Shown one piece after another: positions 28 through 35,080 of a stretch of DNA of 45,197 bases. Positions within the stretch are counted from its first letter, which is position 1. Each line of letters opens with the position of its first letter. This DNA comes from a virus, in IMG/VR virus record IMGVR_UViG_3300005915_000036, positions 1 through 45,197 of that record. One strand, 5' to 3'. Position numbers and translations under genes: made by a program. The notes under the pieces were generated by a model. That model ran no database searches. It saw only the letters and a program-made list of their open reading frames with translations, and was not told the origin of the DNA.

Positions 28-1167
28 GAAAAGTATATGAAGAAGCATCGGGCCAAGCTCAAACCTGATATTAACATTGGTGAGACAACAGCAGGTATGG
101 CTGGTAGCTATAACCGAGACATTGACCTTGAGCATGTCATGCTGTGGGATCATTACAATTATAAGACCAGTAAGCGAACAAGCTATAATGAGAACTACGG
201 CTTTGCGATGGCCGATGATGTCGATGAGATAATGATACGGATAGACCGATTACCAGTTCACTCTATCGTATTCAATCGTAACAGCAGGATGTTCTGGGGT
301 ACTTCTGACTTTAATTTCCAGGAAGATAACGCAATGGAAATAAATGACATCAGAACCCAGCAGATGAAGTTGCGTAGATTACAGTCAGCTAAGGGTTTCT
401 ACGATAAGAATATGTTGGAAGATGAAACTGACATGGAGAACTTTGAGAAGGCACTGGCTTCAATGACTTCAGATGAGGTCATGGCATTGATAGGGATTAA
501 CGGCGACCCTTCCAGGTTCATACAACAGTTCACTCCACACCAGATGCCTGATTTAAGTGGCCAGCTACAGACATGCAAGTCTGAGATTCAGGAGTTTGGT
601 CTGGGAATAGGCCCGCACCAGAGGGGCCAGATGGCTCCCGGCAGGCATACGAAATATGAAACGCAGGTAGCTGAAGGTGGATTCGATATGTCACTGACAC
701 CACGCCTGAAGGTTATCAGAGATGTCTATATCGAGATATTCAAGAACTGGTCTGAGTTGATATTTGAGTTCTGGGATGAACCCCAGCAAGTTCAGACTTT
801 TGACGCTATGGGCAATCCGGTAATGGTAGAGTTCAAGGGAGCGGACCTGAGAGGCGACTATCGGTTCAATATCTCACTGGATTCCATGAGGACAAAGAAC
901 CAACAGCAGAGGGTTGAAGAGGCTAATATGATCTTGGCACAGACGATGCCGGGCGTACAGATGGGGGTTGTGGACCCGCGAGTATTATATCGTCAATATC
1001 TATCGAGGATAAATAGCGATTGGGATATAGATTCACTGGTCCCAATGCCACAACAGCCAAAGGCAATGCCATTCAGTGAGTATCAACAGGGGTTCGGGCA
1101 GCAGATGCCACAGAACGAACAGGGGATAGCTCAGATAATGGGACAAATGGGAGGACAGATAGGTTGA
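1..1167 (+). CDS. Portal protein, C-terminal part (gene crosses the window ends)
   Basis: The reading frame is open from base 1 and continues the frame of 44601-45197 across the 27-base overlap of the two window ends. The joined gene has 578 codons before its TGA. The protein forms the dodecameric portal through which DNA is packaged and ejected. The call rests on position (directly after terminase and one small gene, before the scaffold and capsid genes), on length, and on the look of the sequence: a long charged helical middle and a Gln/Met-rich C-terminal tail, both common in podovirus portals. Its stop overlaps the TTG start of the neuB-like gene. Confidence 0.8.
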   Translation, partial: RHIDDVKADEKYMKKHRAKLKPDINIGETTAGMAGSYNRDIDLEHVMLWDHYNYKTSKRTSYNENYGFAMADDVDEIMIRIDRLPVHSIVFNRNSRMFWGTSDFNFQEDNAMEINDIRTQQMKLRRLQSAKGFYDKNMLEDETDMENFEKALASMTSDEVMALIGINGDPSRFIQQFTPHQMPDLSGQLQTCKSEIQEFGLGIGPHQRGQMAPGRHTKYETQVAEGGFDMSLTPRLKVIRDVYIEIFKNWSELIFEFWDEPQQVQTFDAMGNPVMVEFKGADLRGDYRFNISLDSMRTKNQQQRVEEANMILAQTMPGVQMGVVDPRVLYRQYLSRINSDWDIDSLVPMPQQPKAMPFSEYQQGFGQQMPQNEQGIAQIMGQMGGQIG

Positions 1168-1943
1168 CGTATATCATAGCAGAAGCAGGGATTAACCATA
1201 ACGGCGATATGGGTATCGTTAGAGAGATGATAGATGCAGTAAAGCAAGTTGGGGCAGACTGCATTAAGTTTCAACTATATCATACTAACAGGTTGATATC
1301 AGAGTCTAAGACCGGCGTGAGACTCAGGGACGAAATTATCCAGAAACGTGTAAAGGCCAGGGGCCATCTCCAGCAATGCGAACTCACAAAGGGTAATGTT
1401 TCCGCGATAATGGATATGTGTGCCAAGTCTAAAATAGATTTCCTTGCTACTCCGTTCGACTGCCAGTGGGCCGATATTATGATGGGGCTTGGCTGTAGAG
1501 AGTTCAAGGTCGGCTCGGACCGCATATTCGATGTTCAGTTGATGGAGTTACTCTATCAGTACGCGAACACGCTATATGTATCTCTGGGCATGGCTCAAGG
1601 TGCTGACATAGAGAGGCTGTTAAGCAATAGCTACAATGAGGGTGTGGAGAGCCTTGTCTTAATGCACTGCGTTAGCAAGTACCCAACGCCACCTGAAGAG
1701 GCTGATATGAAGAAGATTCGGCGGTTGCAGGTGAGGTTTGGCAATGAGGTTGGGGTTGGCTTCTCAGATCACACTACTGATATACATGCGGGTGCTTGTG
1801 CTGTTATCAATGGGGCAACGTACCTGGAGAAGCATTTCACATTAGATCATAACATGAAGGGGCCGGACCAGAAGATGTCTTTTACCCCAGATGAGTTAAA
1901 GACTTACATCACGCTGGCCCGTGGCGTGGAGGTTTATACATGA
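1164..1943 (+). CDS. neuB: NeuB-like nonulosonic (sialic) acid synthase, without SAF domain
   Basis: NeuB enzymes condense phosphoenolpyruvate with an N-acetyl-hexosamine-type aldose to make a nine-carbon nonulosonic acid. Family motifs are in order: IAEAGINHNG (5-14), KFQ (35-37), FLATPFD (93-99), KVGSD (115-119), SLGMA (140-144), SDHT (201-204) and EKHFT (222-226). H203 and H224 match the two metal-ligand histidines of the family. The usual GPDH motif reads GPDQ (233-236). At 259 aa it has the TIM barrel but lacks the C-terminal antifreeze-like (SAF) domain of ~350-aa enzymes. The start is TTG, supported by GGGAGGA at 1149-1155 and by overlap with the portal stop. Its substrate (ManNAc or a di-N-acetyl sugar) cannot be told from sequence. 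Confidence 0.88.
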   Translation: MTYIIAEAGINHNGDMGIVREMIDAVKQVGADCIKFQLYHTNRLISESKTGVRLRDEIIQKRVKARGHLQQCELTKGNVSAIMDMCAKSKIDFLATPFDCQWADIMMGLGCREFKVGSDRIFDVQLMELLYQYANTLYVSLGMAQGADIERLLSNSYNEGVESLVLMHCVSKYPTPPEEADMKKIRRLQVRFGNEVGVGFSDHTTDIHAGACAVINGATYLEKHFTLDHNMKGPDQKMSFTPDELKTYITLARGVEVYT

Positions 1944-6535: not shown

Positions 6536-7180
6536 ATGAAGGTAGCTATTGTAGGTGCTGGAGGGCATGGCCGTGTTATCCTGGATATACTCCGTAATAA
6601 CCACCAGTTTGATGTCGTTGGCTTTTTGGATAACAACATTCAAATGCAAGGTAGCGATGTTGACGGTATTCCTATTATCGGACAACCCGATAACATTACT
6701 TTTATGCGGTATGATTTCGATAGCTGTGTTATTGCTATTGGGGATAATAGCATCAGAAATAAGATCGCTCAGAAGTTAAAGGGCGTTCATGTATCTCTGG
6801 TTAATGCTATCCATCCATACGCGACTATCGCTGGTAATGTAAAGATAGGTAACAATGTAACGATAGCGGCTGGTTCGGTGGTATGTACTCATTGCGAGAT
6901 AGCTGACTCAGTAATCCTTAATACGGGTTCTATCGTTGACCATGAGTGTAAGGTCGGTAGAGCTTCACATATATGCCCCGGTGCTAAGATAGCTGGCCGC
7001 GTTAATATAGGTGAGGAAGCGTTTATCGGTATAGGAGCAACAATCGTTCAGGATATTACTATCGGTGACGGTGCTATTATAGGTGCTGGTTCGGTAGTAC
7101 TGGAAGATGTTAAAGCACATACTACTGTGGTTGGCGCACCGGCCAGAGTGATTAAGGCATTGGAACTGGTGAGGGCATAA
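6536..7180 (+). CDS. neuD: NeuD-like sugar O/N-acyltransferase (left-handed beta helix)
   Basis: A 214-aa protein with the full architecture of NeuD/PglD-type acetyl-CoA sugar acyltransferases: an N-terminal Rossmann-like sugar-binding half with GAGGHG (7-12) and GFLDNN, then hexapeptide repeats (~95-205) forming a left-handed beta helix that binds acetyl-CoA. The catalytic-type histidine is in VDHEC (H136), with a second conserved histidine at SHICPGA (H145). These enzymes acetylate sialic acids or their amino-sugar precursors. AAGGAGG precedes the start. The last base pair overlaps the next gene start. Its place inside the structural gene block is unusual. Confidence 0.88.
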   Translation: MKVAIVGAGGHGRVILDILRNNHQFDVVGFLDNNIQMQGSDVDGIPIIGQPDNITFMRYDFDSCVIAIGDNSIRNKIAQKLKGVHVSLVNAIHPYATIAGNVKIGNNVTIAAGSVVCTHCEIADSVILNTGSIVDHECKVGRASHICPGAKIAGRVNIGEEAFIGIGATIVQDITIGDGAIIGAGSVVLEDVKAHTTVVGAPARVIKALELVRA

Positions 7181-21961: not shown

Positions 21962-22252
21962 ATGAAAAAGAAAATGGTAGTAGTGACAACCGATAAGGAT
22001 TGCCGAGGCGTGTTCATGGGTGAACTGCTTCGTTATGACGAAGACAAACAGATTGCCGTATTGAAAGATGCACAAATGGCGGTGCATTGGTCGCAAGCAA
22101 CTAAAGGCGTTTTAGGGTTAGCTGCACATGGTCCGCAAAAAGGCTCTCGCATAACTCCGCAAATTCCGCAGATTGAAGTAAACAAAGTTACTTCTGTTAT
22201 GTCGGCAACAGATAAAGCTGTTGCCGTATGGAGGACTGAGCTGTGGGATTAA
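21962..22252 (+). CDS. Small conserved-looking hypothetical protein (DUF6948-like)
   Basis: A 96-aa protein with segments KKMVVVTTDKDCRGVFMGEL, MAVHWSQATKGVLGLAAHGP and a terminal TSVMSATDKAVAVWRTELW. This resembles a small phage family (DUF6948) that is often followed by a Gly-Tyr repeat gene, as here. The assignment is from memory. Its stop overlaps the GTG start of the repeat gene, which suggests coupled expression. No function is known. Confidence 0.6.
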   Translation: MKKKMVVVTTDKDCRGVFMGELLRYDEDKQIAVLKDAQMAVHWSQATKGVLGLAAHGPQKGSRITPQIPQIEVNKVTSVMSATDKAVAVWRTELWD

Positions 22253-22710
22253 ATAGCATTTACGGTTACGGTTACGGTTCCGGTGACGGTGACGGTGACG
22301 GTTACGGTTCCGGTTACGGTTACGGTTACGGTGACGGTTACGGTGACGGTGACGGTTACGGTTACGGTTACGGTTACGGTTACGGTGACGGTGACGGTTC
22401 CGGTTACGGTTCCGGTGAAATAAATATCCTTAAGCAGAATGCTTTCAAGGCGTTTCATTATATCAAACGTATTGGCAATAAACTAAAAACGCGAAATGGC
22501 GATTTTGTGCAAACAGGAGAGGTTTTATATGAGCCGGAAATTAAAATGTGTGAGTATGGCCTCCATGCTAGTTTGAGCAAAAAGGACGCACGACAATATA
22601 AACCAGCCAATAGCGTATTGACAAAAGTTATTGTTTGGGGCCAAGTTATTGTAAGTCAAGATAAACTTGTAGCGACTCATCGTAAGATAATTGAAGTAGT
22701 TGATATTTAG
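22243..22710 (+). CDS. Gly-Tyr/Asp/Ser repeat protein with C-terminal globular domain
   Basis: A 155-aa protein starting at GTG 22243 (GAGGA at 22231-22235). After MGLNSI come 26 dipeptides of the form YG, DG or SG (residues 7-58), encoded by a hexanucleotide array. The C-terminal ~95 residues are globular: AFKAFHYIKRIGNKLKTRNG, then MCEYGLHASLSKKDARQY and KVIVWGQVIVSQDKLVATHR. This tail is like a small domain (DUF7666-type, from memory) found at the end of repeat proteins in phages. The repeat could be a flexible, aggregation- or ion-binding segment. Its role is unknown. Confidence 0.7.
   Translation: MGLNSIYGYGYGSGDGDGDGYGSGYGYGYGDGYGDGDGYGYGYGYGYGDGDGSGYGSGEINILKQNAFKAFHYIKRIGNKLKTRNGDFVQTGEVLYEPEIKMCEYGLHASLSKKDARQYKPANSVLTKVIVWGQVIVSQDKLVATHRKIIEVVDI
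22261..22416 (+). repeat. Coding hexanucleotide array, 26 units
   Basis: Twenty-six tandem 6-bp units of the forms TACGGT, GACGGT and TCCGGT, in frame with the gene, giving YG, DG and SG. Only positions 1-2 of each unit vary, and only among three codons. Gain or loss of a unit keeps the frame, so length can vary without breaking the gene. The opposite strand reads as a long Thr-Val repeat. Confidence 0.95.
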
Positions 22711-29440: not shown

Positions 29441-29677
29441 ATGAATGAGCAAGTTATATGGCCGACTGTGGTTGTTGAGGAGAGCATCATCCCCTTTGTA
29501 ACGTGGTTTAAGTTGCGAAAAGAAAGAAAGGAGCTTCATGCGTTGTGTTTGATATATGAGAGCCAAGGATATGTATTTGGAGAAATAATGGAAACATTAT
29601 GGAAAGAGCTGGTGTTTCGTAATTGTTTTAGATCGAAAAGAAAGATTAAGCACATTTACGTAGAGGGCAAAAGATGA
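29441..29677 (+). CDS. Small hypothetical protein upstream of the glycosyltransferase
   Basis: A 78-aa protein. The frame opens at a TTG at 29387, but ATG 29441 with GTGGAG (29430-29435) is the better start. It has an internal basic helix (FKLRKERKELHALCLIYES) and a basic tail. Its stop overlaps the start of the Maf-like gene by ATGA. Not recognised. Coupling suggests a link to the sugar genes, but this is weak. Confidence 0.5.
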   Translation: MNEQVIWPTVVVEESIIPFVTWFKLRKERKELHALCLIYESQGYVFGEIMETLWKELVFRNCFRSKRKIKHIYVEGKR

Positions 29678-31458
29678 GTAACCCAAAGCGCGAGCGACGA
29701 ACAAAGATTCTACAATCTAACTGGGATGTGATAGGTGAAGACATCCGCGAGAAGTTGCTTAATGCAAAAAAGCGTAAGAAACTTCCATCCGGTACAATCT
29801 ACCCCGATGTGATGGATGTAGTGAACGACGACCCTTGGGTTTATATCTTACCAGGTATCTCAGACGGCGTATTCCTTGAGAAGCTGATTGATAAGACATC
29901 GGACGACGAGGTAATCATCCTACTGGAGAAGTCCCCGTCTATTCTGAAATACGCACTGGGACGGATAGATATATCAATGGCCATCTTAATGAATAAGATC
30001 ATCCTGATTGATACGGAGAAGCCAAGTGAGATAGTTATCCGGTTGCAGTTGAGTGTGGATAGATTGAGTCGTGGTGTTAAGATAGTCAAACCTGTATGGA
30101 ACTATGACAATGCGTTCTGGTCTGCTGCTGCCCGCGTTGTCATGGACTATGCAGATGCACAGAAGACTCTCATGCTCACCCAGATGACCAATAGCAAGGT
30201 AACAGCGGATAATATCTTGGGTAACAGCTACTTCTACCTCCATAACCCAACGATTGAGAATCTAAAAGATTGCGTAAAAGAAAAGAGTGCCACGCTTGTC
30301 ACGGTGGCGGCAGGCCCAAGTGTTGACGATGTTCTGCCCGGACTGAATCAACTCAGCGAGTTGCCGCCATTCGTGACATGCTTAACTATGTTGAAGCCGC
30401 TACTAGCTCATGGTATTAAGCCCGCATACGTTACTGCACTGGATTACCATGAAATATCAGGACGGTTTCTCGATGATGTAACGCTGGAGCAGTGTGAAGG
30501 TACGGTATTCCTGATGGACCCGAAGGTTAATCCAGTGGTCATTAAGAATATCCAGAAGATGGGTGGTAAGTTGTGCTTCTTCTCTGATGGATGGCTCAAT
30601 GAGTTGTGCGGGCTAAAGAGAGATGATTATATCGGTGGCTGTTCTACGGTAGCACACCTGAGCTTCCAGGTTGCTGCGTGGCTGGGTGCAGAGAAGATCA
30701 TTATGATTGGTAACGACCTATCGTTCCCAGATGAGAAGTATTACGCTGAGGCTGTATATGAGCATCACAAGTGGAAAGAACCGTCAAGGCTAATGACATC
30801 ACCACAACATCGGATGCTGAGAGTGTGTAAGAATAAAGAGGGTGACCCTGTGTATTCTGATGAGCAGATGGTGAGTTACCTGAAGCAGTTCGAAATGATG
30901 TGGAGAAACTTCGATGGTACTGTCGTCGATTGTTCCCATCCCAAGAGTGTTAAGAAGGCCCACTGTGAAGAGATGGATTTGGATAAAGCTATTGAGACAT
31001 ACCGCAACAGTGGAGAGCTATCGTTCCCGGACTTAGTGGAACAGAAGATGGACATGAATGATGTATTTGAGCATATAGATAAATATCTGGGTGAATTGGA
31101 TAGATTCATCATATCTCATAAGAAGATTTTGAACGCTTACACAATGCTGGAAGGGAAGTTTGAGGATGAGGTCTTATGGAATAAAGCCAGGGCAATCATT
31201 ATTAAGGAGAAGAAGACGCTGGACGAGCTTATGCACCTTGCTCCCCGTATTGAGAGCTTTTCTGGTATCGCAGAGTTTATCAAGCGGTGGGAAGATACTA
31301 TATGCAAGCGACATGAAGATAAATGGGATAAGCATAAGATTAAGGAACATCGATTCAGTCGTGACTTGCGATATATATCAAACATCCAGAACTCAGCGGA
31401 GAAGATGTATGAGATAATCAGTGAAATGCGTGACGGCCTAAAGAATAAAACTTTGTAA
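29674..31458 (+). CDS. DUF115 / Maf-like glycosyltransferase (nonulosonic acid transferase type)
   Basis: A 594-aa protein. The core is the DUF115 domain of motility-associated factor (Maf) proteins: VTVAAGPSVDDVLPGL (209-224), TMLKPLLAHGIKPAYVTALD (~238-257), GGCSTVAHLSFQVAAWLGA (~321-339), and KIIMIGNDLSF (341-351). Maf proteins transfer CMP-activated pseudaminic or legionaminic acid to Ser/Thr of flagellin in several bacteria. The residues before ~200 and after ~450 are helical extensions. In a phage beside neuA and with neuB and neuD elsewhere, the likely job is to attach a nonulosonic acid to a protein. The acceptor is unknown. Related DUF115 proteins include MptE-type pterin enzymes, a weaker alternative. 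Confidence 0.8.
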   Translation: MSNPKRERRTKILQSNWDVIGEDIREKLLNAKKRKKLPSGTIYPDVMDVVNDDPWVYILPGISDGVFLEKLIDKTSDDEVIILLEKSPSILKYALGRIDISMAILMNKIILIDTEKPSEIVIRLQLSVDRLSRGVKIVKPVWNYDNAFWSAAARVVMDYADAQKTLMLTQMTNSKVTADNILGNSYFYLHNPTIENLKDCVKEKSATLVTVAAGPSVDDVLPGLNQLSELPPFVTCLTMLKPLLAHGIKPAYVTALDYHEISGRFLDDVTLEQCEGTVFLMDPKVNPVVIKNIQKMGGKLCFFSDGWLNELCGLKRDDYIGGCSTVAHLSFQVAAWLGAEKIIMIGNDLSFPDEKYYAEAVYEHHKWKEPSRLMTSPQHRMLRVCKNKEGDPVYSDEQMVSYLKQFEMMWRNFDGTVVDCSHPKSVKKAHCEEMDLDKAIETYRNSGELSFPDLVEQKMDMNDVFEHIDKYLGELDRFIISHKKILNAYTMLEGKFEDEVLWNKARAIIIKEKKTLDELMHLAPRIESFSGIAEFIKRWEDTICKRHEDKWDKHKIKEHRFSRDLRYISNIQNSAEKMYEIISEMRDGLKNKTL

Positions 31459-31468
31459 GGAGATAGAT

Positions 31469-31768
31469 ATGAAACCACAATACAAAACAAGAGAAGCGTT
31501 GATCGGGGCATTGGAAAGACAAGAGAAGAAGCACTCTGACTTGATTAAGTCACACAAGAAGCATGAAGAGACAGTGGGTAAATTACAGACAGAGCTTGCC
31601 GCTACTCAAGAGGTCGCTGTAGCTGCACGTAAGGCATTAGCTACAACCGAGAGGTTACTAATCGAGATGGGCGACCTGAAGATAGCCGCTGCCCGAACCC
31701 GTATCCAGGAGATAATTAAAAGAGGTCTAATGGATGGTAAAAATATCAAACACTTTTGTGGAGATTAA
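31469..31768 (+). CDS. Small coiled-coil hypothetical protein
   Basis: A 99-aa protein with AAGGAG before ATG, forming nearly one long helix (ALERQEKKHSDLIKSHKKHE, then KLQTELAATQEVAVAARKAL). It lies within the sugar operon between the Maf-like gene and an HhH-like gene, and could be an adaptor or oligomerisation partner. Not recognised. Confidence 0.5.
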   Translation: MKPQYKTREALIGALERQEKKHSDLIKSHKKHEETVGKLQTELAATQEVAVAARKALATTERLLIEMGDLKIAAARTRIQEIIKRGLMDGKNIKHFCGD

Positions 31769-31772
31769 GAAG

Positions 31773-32018
31773 ATGGACCGTTTGAAATATTTCAAACAGA
31801 GTAAGCTTTGCGGTAAGAATATAGGCCATCATATTGATAAACACCTCAAGCAAGCAGGACTCATAAAAGACGGAGTACTGGATGTGGATCAATTGCGACA
31901 AATGGTATTGACCGGGAAGGTATGGTCGATAAGAGGGATAGGTGAAACTTCTATTATGTCTATATGCGACTGGCTTGAAGAGCAAGACAAGAAAGATGAG
32001 GCTAAAAATGACCTGTAA
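31773..32018 (+). CDS. Small helix-hairpin-helix-like protein (RNA polymerase alpha-CTD-like)
   Basis: An 81-aa protein, ATG 31773 with GGAG upstream. The C-terminal half, VWSIRGIGETSIMSICDWL (residues ~51-69), has the I-R-x-hG-x-x-S-hhx-I pattern of helix-hairpin-helix domains such as the bacterial RNA polymerase alpha C-terminal domain, which binds UP-element DNA and transcription factors. A DNA-binding or transcription-adaptor role is possible. It overlaps the radical SAM gene by 11 bases. Confidence 0.5.
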   Translation: MDRLKYFKQSKLCGKNIGHHIDKHLKQAGLIKDGVLDVDQLRQMVLTGKVWSIRGIGETSIMSICDWLEEQDKKDEAKNDL

Positions 32019-33393
32019 AGACATAACACTAATAAACCCTCCTGTGAGATTGCAAGATAAACCGCGTAACTTTCCACATGGACTGGGAAGCATAGCTGCT
32101 GTATTAATAGACGCTCATATAGATGTTGGTGTGATAGATGCTAACGCTCTGCGTATGCCTGATGATATGGTGATTGAAGAACTAAAGAAGCAGTCACCGA
32201 AGTATATCGGTATCGGTGGTATGGTAACTACGTACACATGGCAGAAGAGAATGGTCCCGCTGATTAAGAATGCACTGCCTGATGCTAAGATTGTACTGGG
32301 TGGCGGACTTGCTACTGCGTGTACAAAGATCGTGGAGAGGAATATACCGCATGACTTTCTAATTACTGGTGAAGGTGAAGATAAGATTCTTCGGGAAGTG
32401 TTTGGGATAGATATATCACCCCCAGAGGAATTCAACTTTGACCATCCTGCATACACACCATACTATCTATTTCCGATGAAGGTGTACTTGTCTAATCCCG
32501 TTGTTGGTTTTGGCAGGGATATGGATATGATAACGTCCAAAGGATGTCCTTACGATTGCAGGTTTTGCTATAGACTGAGTGGGACTAAGTGGGTGAGTAA
32601 ATCTGCATCTACTGTGGGATGCGAGATTTCCCGCCTTAGAAAAAACTATCTAATAGACTTTGTTTCCTTTCAGGACGACTGCTTTGTTATAAACAAGCAA
32701 AGGGTCTATGATATATGTTCGATAATAAGAGTGCATTTTTCTGACCTCAAATGGTCATGCACTGGCCGGGTGGGTATCTGCGACCTCGATATGCTCAAAG
32801 AGATGAAAGCATCGGGATGTGTATCAGTGAGCTATGGCATTGAGTCAGGTAGTAATAAGATGCTCAAGTTAATGGGCAAGAAACAGACAGCAGCACAGGC
32901 TGCACAAGCCATCAAGGACACAAGAGAGGCAGGTATGCTATGCCCGACCTCGTTCATCTTCGGATACCCAGGTGAGAATCCAGACACTCTAATGGAGACT
33001 CAAAACTTCTGCATAGATAATCAGATACCACTGACCTCACTGATGTATGCGACACCATATCCGGGTACACAACTATACGAACAGGTACTTGGTCTTATTA
33101 GGGCAGCGTTCGTAAGCGAAGAAGCGTATCTTGGCGCATTGTGTGATAGCGGGGATTGCAACAATTTTTTAATAAACCTTGCGTGGCCAACTAATGTTCC
33201 TAGTTTAGACCAATGGTGTGTTAATGACGCGATAATACAGACGCATGACGGCATGATTCAAACAGTCAATAAGAAGGTTAAGCCATATATGACTCAAGAA
33301 CAGATAGCTGAATTGTACGGCCCCAACTTCAAGGGGTTCAGTGATAAAGATAAGGAACACCGCAGACAGCATGGATTTAATTTGGGAGATTAA
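32008..33393 (+). CDS. B12-binding-type radical SAM enzyme
   Basis: A 461-aa protein. Residues ~5-140 fit a cobalamin-binding (Rossmann) domain, including LINPP (8-12), GLGSIAAVL (25-33) and IGIGGMVTTY (~67-76). The radical SAM cluster motif is C180-x3-C184-x2-C187 in SKGCPYDCRFC. Downstream are SYGIESGS and GYPGENPDTL, typical of the family. Such enzymes methylate or rearrange unreactive carbon centres and often sit in surface-sugar clusters. Here it lies between the Maf-like and neuA-like genes, so a sugar modification is likely. Its substrate cannot be told. ATG 32008 follows GAGG at 31998-32001. Confidence 0.85.
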   Translation: MTCKDITLINPPVRLQDKPRNFPHGLGSIAAVLIDAHIDVGVIDANALRMPDDMVIEELKKQSPKYIGIGGMVTTYTWQKRMVPLIKNALPDAKIVLGGGLATACTKIVERNIPHDFLITGEGEDKILREVFGIDISPPEEFNFDHPAYTPYYLFPMKVYLSNPVVGFGRDMDMITSKGCPYDCRFCYRLSGTKWVSKSASTVGCEISRLRKNYLIDFVSFQDDCFVINKQRVYDICSIIRVHFSDLKWSCTGRVGICDLDMLKEMKASGCVSVSYGIESGSNKMLKLMGKKQTAAQAAQAIKDTREAGMLCPTSFIFGYPGENPDTLMETQNFCIDNQIPLTSLMYATPYPGTQLYEQVLGLIRAAFVSEEAYLGALCDSGDCNNFLINLAWPTNVPSLDQWCVNDAIIQTHDGMIQTVNKKVKPYMTQEQIAELYGPNFKGFSDKDKEHRRQHGFNLGD

Positions 33394-33397
33394 GAAC

Positions 33398-34102
33398 ATG
33401 GATACAGTAGTAATAATACCAGCAAGAGCAGGTAGCAAGGGGCTGGAGAATAAGAATATGATGAAGATTGGTGGCTTATCACTAGTTGCCCATACCGTGT
33501 TGTATGGGTCACGAACTGGATGCGATGTGGCATTAACAACGAATATTACATTATGGGCTAAATATGATAACTCAATCGCAACATATGGACTGAAAACTAT
33601 AGCCAGACCCGAATGTCTATGCCAAGACGATACCTCAATTGACATGGTGTTGAGACATGCCGTAGAAAGGCTCAAGCCCGACTCATACGAATATGTGGCC
33701 CTACTGTACCCGAATGTAGTACGCAAGCCGGGCATACTCAAGGCGTGTATTGATAAGATCAAAGAGACTGGTTGTGATTCAGTCCAGACTGTTACAGAGG
33801 TATCTGAGCAGCATCCATTCTTCATGCACACTAAGAACAAGGACGACCAGATTCACAAGCTAATCTATAACCAGGTATATCGCAGGCAGGAACTACCTAA
33901 GTACTACTACGTAGATGGAGCAGCAGCAGTAGTTAAGACAGAGGTGTTGATGGAAGCAAACACAAGCGACGACCCGCACGCCTTCTGGGGCACAGATCGC
34001 CGTTGTGTTGTCCAGCAGCAGGGCGATTCAATTAACATAGACACCCAGCACGACTACGAGATGGCTGTAGATTATATGGCCCGACTCACCTCTGGTAAAT
34101 GA
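33398..34102 (+). CDS. neuA: NeuA-like CMP-nonulosonic acid synthetase
   Basis: A 234-aa protein with the nucleotide-binding loop of acylneuraminate cytidylyltransferases, IPARAGSKG (7-15) followed by LENKN, then ARPECLCQDDTS (69-80) and the C-terminal IDTQHDYEMA (214-223). It would activate a nonulosonic acid with CTP to give the CMP-sugar donor for the Maf-like transferase. Two places deviate: the usual QPTSPLR reads YPNVVRK (near 104-110), and the usual NGA near the C-terminal half reads VDGAA (172-176). It may thus use an unusual substrate, or be divergent. ATG 33398 has GGGAG upstream. Its end overlaps the convergent recombinase by 31 bases. Confidence 0.82.
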   Translation: MDTVVIIPARAGSKGLENKNMMKIGGLSLVAHTVLYGSRTGCDVALTTNITLWAKYDNSIATYGLKTIARPECLCQDDTSIDMVLRHAVERLKPDSYEYVALLYPNVVRKPGILKACIDKIKETGCDSVQTVTEVSEQHPFFMHTKNKDDQIHKLIYNQVYRRQELPKYYYVDGAAAVVKTEVLMEANTSDDPHAFWGTDRRCVVQQQGDSINIDTQHDYEMAVDYMARLTSGK

Positions 34103-34809
34103 CCAAGCATACGTAAGGCTCGATAGACTGTGGATATGCTGATGCTCTGGGTCTTAGCTATGGTCGGAGCCTTCATACCATTCATGGCCAGACTATTGAT
34201 AGCCTTAACATGGGCATCGGTCAGCTTAGTCCTCCGGCCCTTACGAGAGCCGCCCCACTTCTTACCAGTCCACTCATGCTGGCATGTCTTGCACTTATAA
34301 TGGAACTCTTTAGGATGCTTCTGCCTGGGGTCGGGGGTAGGCTTACACTTAGCCTTACACTCTGGGCAGTTAGATCGCCGGGCAGCAGAGATACCGGCCC
34401 GAATCCTCTCGGCCCTCATATCAGCCTCATATTGAGCGAATGAGGCCATAATGTTAGTTATCAGCTCGCCCAGCTCTGTTGAGTTATCTATGCCCTCAGA
34501 TACGGATATGATGTTGACCTGGTTATCCTTGCACAACTGGAAGAACTTGCAAGCCTCAATCATTGACCTGCCCAACCGATCAACACGCCAGACCACCACA
34601 CGCTCTATATTGCCTCCTGAGACTAATCGTTCTAAATCGTAGTATTGTGGCCTACCTGTACGCGAACGCCCGGAGGCGGTATCCTCAAGCCAAATCTGGT
34701 CTTCTGGGTGTATATGTGATAGCTCTAACCAACGTTCTATGTCTGGTCGCTGACTGGCTGTACTCTGATGGCCCGTACTAACCCGCATGTATATTGCTGT
34801 TTTATTCAA
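34072..34809 (-). CDS. Serine recombinase of the resolvase/invertase family with zinc-ribbon insert
   Basis: A 245-aa protein from TTG 34809 (GGGGGTGGAAA upstream; an in-frame ATG at 34833 is an alternative). The catalytic domain has YMRVSTGHQ with S11 as nucleophile, LEDTASGRSRTGRP (~41-54), VVVWRVDRLGRS (71-82), and the E-helix FAQYEADMRAERIRAG (~124-139). Cysteines 148, 151, 155, 173 and 176 form a zinc ribbon inserted before a Hin-like helix-turn-helix (residues ~195-235). It may resolve genome multimers, invert DNA or integrate. It is too short for a classical large serine integrase. No tail-fibre inversion site was seen. Confidence 0.85.
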   Translation of the reverse strand: MNKTAIYMRVSTGHQSTASQRPDIERWLELSHIHPEDQIWLEDTASGRSRTGRPQYYDLERLVSGGNIERVVVWRVDRLGRSMIEACKFFQLCKDNQVNIISVSEGIDNSTELGELITNIMASFAQYEADMRAERIRAGISAARRSNCPECKAKCKPTPDPRQKHPKEFHYKCKTCQHEWTGKKWGGSRKGRRTKLTDAHVKAINSLAMNGMKAPTIAKTQSISISTVYRALRMLGHLPEVSRAI

Positions 34810-35080
34810 TTTCCACCCCCAGTACCGAATCATGGATGAACTCGGCAGCTTCGTAGAAAGCATTGATATTGGCAATCTTTGCCTCTGCTGTCATCCCGTC
34901 CCGACTTATAATTCGCTCGATCTCAGTAGTTATCGCGCCCATAATCATAAGCCAGACTTTAGTATCCAGTTGGATACAATGCTTGACCAGGAGTGAGTCC
35001 GGTTCATGCTCAATCATATTAAGCACGACTTCACCTATTGCACGCCGTACTTCTTTTGCTTTTGTTCTCATATGTTCCAT
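34802..35080 (-). CDS. Hypothetical helical protein of the leftward operon
   Basis: A 92-aa helical protein, ATG with AAGGAGC on the minus strand. No Cys cluster or membrane segment. Its stop overlaps the TTG start of the recombinase, so the two are probably co-translated. It could be a partner or regulator of the recombinase, an inference from coupling only. Confidence 0.55.
   Translation of the reverse strand: MEHMRTKAKEVRRAIGEVVLNMIEHEPDSLLVKHCIQLDTKVWLMIMGAITTEIERIISRDGMTAEAKIANINAFYEAAEFIHDSVLGVEIE

Follow-up and report, generated by a model that had tools for sequence, protein, structure and literature searches.

The window, which is the whole 45,197-base virus record analysed here, was judged to be a complete genome of about 45 kb since its ends carry a 27-base direct repeat and the portal gene continues from one end of the record into the other. 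Gene calls placed five abutting genes between positions 29674 and 34102. In order, these encode a Maf-like transferase, a coiled-coil ORF, an HhH-like ORF, a B12-radical SAM enzyme, and a NeuA-like protein (Table 1). A preliminary description of this DNA had named four of them, and its placements of the Maf-like, HhH-like, radical SAM, and NeuA genes stood. Its list was incomplete, as the coiled-coil ORF at 31469-31768 had been left out. The junctions it gave were confirmed: the radical SAM gene starts at an ATG at 32008 and overlaps by 11 bases the HhH-like ORF, which ends at 32018, and a 4-base gap separates the radical SAM stop at 33393 from the NeuA-like ATG at 33398. The pathway genes are not a single operon, being spread over three places in the genome.

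Table 1. Genes considered in this analysis, with their positions in the window
Feature	Position	Strand	Evidence
Maf/PseD-like motility-associated-factor type glycosyltransferase (predicted), 594 aa	29674..31458	+	PF01973, profile comparison
Coiled-coil-like ORF, 99 aa	31469..31768	+	ORF call; conserved in L005-L008
HhH-like ORF, 81 aa	31773..32018	+	Sequence reading
B12-binding-domain radical SAM enzyme, 461 aa, NulO-associated clade, CxxxCxxC at residues 180-187	32008..33393	+	PF04055, PF02310
NeuA/PseF-like CMP-nonulosonate synthetase (predicted), 234 aa	33398..34102	+	PF02348; motif ARAGSKGLENKN
NeuB-type nonulosonate synthase without SAF domain, 259 aa, directly after portal gene	1164..1943	+	PF03102
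NeuD/PglD-family sugar acyltransferase, 214 aa, in head gene block	6536..7180	+	TIGR03570
Serine recombinase (invertase/resolvase type)	34072..34875	-	PF00239 5.2e-32

Relatives of the phage were found at 100% identity (L001-L004) and at 77% identity (L005-L008). The order Maf-like, coiled-coil, radical SAM, NeuA is kept in L001-L008 wherever the contig reaches, and NeuB, NeuD, NeuA, and Maf are all present too in the relative contig of L008/L018. When computed against one diverged relative, 77-90% identical, dN/dS was 0.06 for the Maf-like gene, 0.09 for the radical SAM gene, 0.16 for NeuA, and 0.19 for the coiled-coil ORF, with values of 0.057 for NeuB and 0.093 for NeuD. The Maf-like, radical SAM, NeuA, and coiled-coil ORFs are real genes under purifying selection, which also acts on NeuB and NeuD. 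The coiled-coil ORF, about 74% conserved in L005-L008, received no confident family assignment. The HhH-like ORF, whose label is a sequence reading, had no match in any domain or family library searched. It is absent from the 77% relative L008 and is, therefore, predicted to be dispensable. Replication-type genes (DnaB, RusA) lie upstream of the Maf-radical SAM-NeuA block. A serine recombinase gene is convergent with the NeuA gene and overlaps it by 31 bases, an arrangement also seen in L008. The recombinase is probably not part of the sugar pathway, and a repeat search for its target or inversion sites gave nothing convincing. Elsewhere in the genome, the ORF at 22243-22710 has a long Gly/Asp/Tyr/Ser-rich repeat at its start, followed by a DUF7666 domain.

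The first gene of the block encodes a protein with a PF01973 domain (MptE-like, DUF115; E = 3.1e-25, 89.3 bits against a cut-off of 34.6). Four bacterial Mafs were used for comparison, two or more of which are near flagellin or flagellar genes. The hhalign profile comparison with these four gave a probability of 99.8% and an E-value of 3.9e-28 over residues 59-446, bearing out the earlier label of Maf-like transferase. The phage protein was also found by tblastn with a bacterial Maf near flagellar genes (L188; 27% over 455 aa, E = 6.8e-35). It did not pass the curated PseD model NF050051 (75 bits against 670, E = 5e-21). A bacterial Maf near flagellin, in L235, scored only 88 on the same model, so NF050051 describes one Maf subgroup and does not define the family. 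These comparisons place the phage transferase, as predicted from its sequence, in the Maf family over its N-terminal and central parts. Archaeal MptE, a pterin diphosphokinase, was considered as the identity of the transferase and ruled out, because the similarity to flagellar Mafs reaches beyond the shared domain. The AlphaFold model of the Maf-like protein had a pLDDT of 38, too low for the model to be of use.

The assignment of the fourth gene to the B12-radical SAM enzymes held, with a radical SAM domain (PF04055; 1.3e-18, 68.2 bits against 29.5) and a B12-binding domain (PF02310; 9.4e-13, 48.5 bits against 32.1). The CxxxCxxC motif reads CPYDCRFC and its cysteines are invariant in the alignment. 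No DxHxxG motif was seen by eye in the protein; as AprD4 illustrates, a B12-type domain need not bind cobalamin. Scores were below the family cut-offs for AprD4 (73 bits against 500), HpnJ (110 against 578), BchE (119 against 481), and PhpK (118 against 600), and the best NCBIfam scores were for unrelated enzymes, BchE, PhpK, ApyD, and HpnJ, all far under cut-off. The structural model was of medium confidence (pLDDT 66), and its best matches, at fold level only, were AprD4, OxsB, TsrM, and MgmA. AprD4 (6fd2), a radical SAM 1,2-diol dehydratase, was the top solved match by both sequence and fold, and several of the further matches are methylases. Like AprD4, which acts on an aminosugar, the phage protein combines a B12-type domain with a radical SAM domain. 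It matches AprD4 in sequence only over the radical SAM part (E = 2.7e-16) and, with its score under the AprD4 cut-off, does not belong to that family. Since most characterised B12-radical SAM enzymes methylate, we put slightly more weight on C-methylation as its reaction. A defence system was also considered and rejected, as the only PADLOC result was a weak match between the radical SAM protein and a candidate family.

The last gene of the block had been described as NeuA, and its product is indeed a predicted NeuA/PseF-like cytidylyltransferase by PF02348 (CTP_transf_3; 3e-9, 37.5 bits against a cut-off of 22.6). Solved CMP-Neu5Ac synthetases were also matched (6ifd, 1e-12; 1eyr, 5.9e-11). 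The PseF equivalog TIGR03584 was not reached (6.8e-14, 52 bits against 205.7). We, therefore, call the predicted product of 33398-34102 NeuA-like, with PseF membership below cut-off. In our reading of the alignment, the phage protein has Asn at one of the two metal-binding Asp positions of Neisseria NeuA. A stretch at about 33500-33600, in the N-terminal third of NeuA, has 41% DNA identity to L008 and well-conserved flanks. This divergence could reflect recombination or selection on substrate range.

Two further sugar genes, NeuB and NeuD, are both located among the head genes. NeuB has the PF03102 TIM-barrel (5.7e-61, 206.5 bits against 22.1) and retains the KVGS, SDHT, and EKHF motifs. It scored under the cut-offs of TIGR03569 (9e-67, 225 bits against 399.65) and PseI (2e-48) because its C-terminal part is missing. 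The SAF domain helps sugar binding in Neisseria NeuB, and none was found in the 259-aa phage protein or downstream of it. Among the viral NeuB ORFs with a complete barrel (L016-L063 loci), 49 of 56 have fewer than 50 residues after the barrel, which leaves no room for SAF, and viral NeuBs seem from their sequences to be a shortened type. NeuD scored over the curated TIGR03570 cut-off (223.5 bits against 160.8). With NeuB and NeuD elsewhere in the genome, the sugar class can be narrowed to the nonulosonic acids (NulO: sialic, legionaminic, or pseudaminic type). NeuC, PseB, PseC, PseG, and PtmE-type early genes had no match anywhere in the phage genome, so the six-carbon precursor would have to come from the host. 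The phage is predicted to encode the late steps of NulO synthesis together with a Maf-type transferase.

The neighbourhoods of related genes were compared in viruses. Scanning viral contigs turned up 51 NeuB loci. Among 50 viral records, the majority of which had been selected for NeuB, a NeuA-family gene was present in 45, a PF01973 gene in 23, and a radical SAM gene in 17. Background records were drawn by a random 15-base pattern; none of these 31 had a radical SAM gene, although the random records were shorter on average and size is part of the contrast. Ten of 21 viral radical SAM genes were within 5 kb of NeuB compared to 3.8 expected (P = 0.00045), in a test that left out the phage's own family and used positions entered by hand. 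Six diverged viral contigs have a B12-radical SAM gene next to either NeuA or NeuB. One virus, L024, has the same order as the phage, Maf-like, B12-radical SAM, and NeuA. In another, L022, a capsid gene is soon followed by consecutive Maf-like, NeuB, and NeuA genes.

Some viral clusters contain fused genes. In L022:8275-9993, methyltransferase and Maf-like (PF01973) domains are joined in one protein, with NeuB and NeuA following. In L033:8623-9990, a NeuA-type cytidylyltransferase is fused to a methyltransferase domain, and the surrounding cluster includes NeuB, a Maf-like gene, and two radical SAM genes. Matches to Moritella in the phage collection were set aside, as they come from a bacterial contig and not a phage.

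An alignment scan with the radical SAM protein over 84,980 genomes found relatives at 24-37% identity among the matches listed. One bacterial locus, L079, has pseudaminic acid genes together with flagellin: pseB, pseC, spsF/pseF, pseG, and pseI are followed by a B12-radical SAM gene, maf, flagellin, and fliD. Further bacterial loci were found from relatives of the L079 genome, by radical SAM sequence alone. L214 and L215 contain flagellin, maf, a methyltransferase, B12-radical SAM, neuB, and neuA, and L235 contains maf, B12-radical SAM, and flagellin. In L239 and L241, neuB, neuC, a nucleotidyltransferase, and neuA occur with B12-radical SAM, and neuD is ahead of neuB in L241. L217 and L218 are NulO clusters in bacteria whose B12-radical SAM gene is of the same clade. 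In L216, neuB, neuC, and a nucleotidyltransferase accompany a B12-radical SAM gene that abuts neuA, as in the phage. Of the cellular proteins found, that of L216 is also the closest to the phage enzyme (36% over 490 columns, and 42% when only query residues 143-456 are counted). In both L216 and L241, NeuB and NeuC scored over curated cut-offs. No maf was present in the L216, L239, and L241 clusters within the 8-15 kb read. L240 is a weak case, with NeuB on the opposite strand about 4.6 kb away. For the clade member L234, whose 12.5 kb contig covers 3 kb upstream of the gene and 8 kb downstream, no NulO gene was found, nor was one found for L221 in 6.5 kb downstream. The preliminary description had proposed a comparison of homologue neighbourhoods, and this came out in its favour: radical SAM relatives lie repeatedly beside neuA, neuB, and maf in viruses and bacteria, so these homologues do occur near sugar genes. 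Next to the B12-radical SAM gene, L214 and L215 also carry an apparent further radical SAM gene, as well as a methyltransferase-like gene rich in cysteine codons, and their NeuB is within a long ORF of about 780 aa.

A quick maximum-likelihood tree was made with 103 radical SAM proteins. A single branch (SH-aLRT 96) sets apart all 19 proteins that have a NulO or Maf gene no more than 7 kb away, and 4 rows with little context fall with them. The 49 rows with read context but no NulO or Maf gene are all on the other side. When the labels were shuffled, 16.9 changes were needed on average, and none of 500 shuffles gave as few as observed. The pattern was repeated with 96 rows. Viral rows had been picked via NeuB and some bacterial rows via L079; the independent test is provided by the bacterial rows picked by radical SAM sequence, and these agree with the pattern. 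There is, then, a recurrent link between NulO genes and a clade of B12-radical SAM enzymes common to phages and bacteria. A role in DNA or nucleotide modification was rejected: phage SF3 has its radical SAM gene next to those for thymidylate kinase and Nudix proteins, but the SF3 protein forms a long branch that is not part of the NulO clade.

The explanation we favour, with a probability of roughly 0.6, is that the phage carries the late half of a NulO protein-glycosylation pathway, in which the radical SAM enzyme alters either the NulO or a precursor before the sugar is activated and Maf attaches the sugar to Ser/Thr. We infer the substrate, the reaction, the order of steps, and the acceptor. 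Several observations speak against this explanation: the phage has no match to the early-step genes, its NeuB is short of SAF, its NeuA has Asn at a metal-binding position, the genes are dispersed, and L234 and L221 have no NulO gene in the stretches read. NeuB would join a host-made six-carbon sugar and phosphoenolpyruvate to form the nine-carbon NulO, and NeuD would acylate this product or its precursor. The B12-radical SAM enzyme may make a radical-type change on one or the other before CMP activation, with C-methylation being a little likelier than epimerisation or dehydration/deoxygenation. NeuA would form the CMP-sugar, and the Maf-type enzyme would transfer the sugar in the cytoplasm to Ser/Thr of a protein. 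A phage structural protein is the most likely acceptor and host flagellin the main alternative. We favour a virion acceptor since NeuB and NeuD are among the head genes and the set in L022 is close behind the capsid gene.

That same placement bears on the possibility that the cassette modifies host flagellin or surface proteins instead of the virion, altering receptors and blocking further infection. Bacterial Mafs do act on flagellin, and the position of the Maf-radical SAM-NeuA block downstream of the DnaB and RusA genes would allow early expression. However, NeuB and NeuD are inside the head gene block and the maf-neuB-neuA row of L022 follows a capsid gene closely, and we consider host modification fairly unlikely.

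The preliminary description left it between the sugar and the glycosylated protein as the target of the radical SAM enzyme. Action on the protein or the protein-bound glycan after Maf transfer would fit the position of the gene between maf-like and neuA in the phage, and its position beside maf and flagellin in L079, L214, L215, and L235. Some B12-radical SAM enzymes modify proteins, such as MgmA, one of the fold matches, which acts on methyl-CoM reductase. On the other hand, L216, L239, and L241 pair the radical SAM gene with neuA, with no maf in the stretch read, and the top solved match, AprD4, has a small aminosugar as its substrate. We regard a step after transfer as unlikely. Because of these pairings with neuA in bacterial clusters, the most likely substrate, judging from gene context, is the sugar before or at activation, rather than the glycosylated protein.

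It is quite improbable that the radical SAM gene rides along at a site of variable gene content, has some other job (lipid, cofactor, or nucleotide), and is only accidentally adjacent to neuA; in favour of this are the great size of the B12-radical SAM family, the top NCBIfam scores for unrelated enzymes, and the distant radical SAM gene beside thymidylate kinase in SF3, but the phage gene is under purifying selection, its neighbourhood recurs, and the tree result falls on a single branch, including the bacterial rows chosen by sequence only.

One of the closest known systems is the O-glycosylation of flagellin by Maf/PseD with pseudaminic or legionaminic acid in Aeromonas, Campylobacter, and Clostridium. 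Both combine Maf with NeuB-, NeuA-, and NeuD-type enzymes, and by analogy cytoplasmic O-glycosylation of protein would be expected in the phage. Unlike that system, the phage has no flagellin found and no early pathway genes; its genes are in three places and a B12-radical SAM enzyme is added. The bacterial NulO clusters described above (L079, L214-L218, L235, L239, and L241) resemble the phage in having the same radical SAM clade beside neuA, neuB, or maf, with L216 being closest. They differ in that several have the early steps. The preliminary description suggested a new phage chemistry, such as C-methylation or epimerisation. Bacterial loci for NulO synthesis and flagellin glycosylation contain this radical SAM group too, and for this reason the chemistry probably originated in bacteria.

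An Acinetobacter baumannii prophage offers a precedent for phage enzymes acting on a nonulosonic acid: its EpaA-EpaB carry out a two-enzyme 8-epimerisation of pseudaminic acid with an AciE-like oxidoreductase, and we found no mention there of a synthase, activator, Maf, or radical SAM enzyme (PMC12053666). Phage enzymes altering pseudaminic acid (PMC12053666) and Maf-dependent flagellin glycosylation are already known. Among open-licence papers, we did not find described a link between radical SAM enzymes and pseudaminic acid, legionaminic acid, or flagellin glycosylation, nor the clade of radical SAM enzymes tied to NulO genes, nor any phage that itself encodes a NulO synthase, activator, Maf, and B12-radical SAM enzyme. 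Although the sialic-acid-like sugars of bacterial surfaces and flagella have been studied well, no radical enzyme is, to our knowledge, known to take part in making them, and none came up in those papers. We suggest tentatively, and at less than an even chance, that an undescribed clade of B12-radical SAM enzymes does a radical step on NulOs (C-methylation, epimerisation, or deoxygenation), giving a new sugar, and that phages decorate their virions with it via their own Maf.

The presence of a NulO-tied B12-radical SAM clade in many bacteria points to unrecognised sugar structures. The bacterial clade members in flagellin loci make the link between radical SAM enzymes and NulOs directly testable. 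If it is true that a phage makes and attaches a NulO, this would be a new surface change for virions or infected hosts, with relevance to receptor binding, defence evasion, and phage glycobiology.
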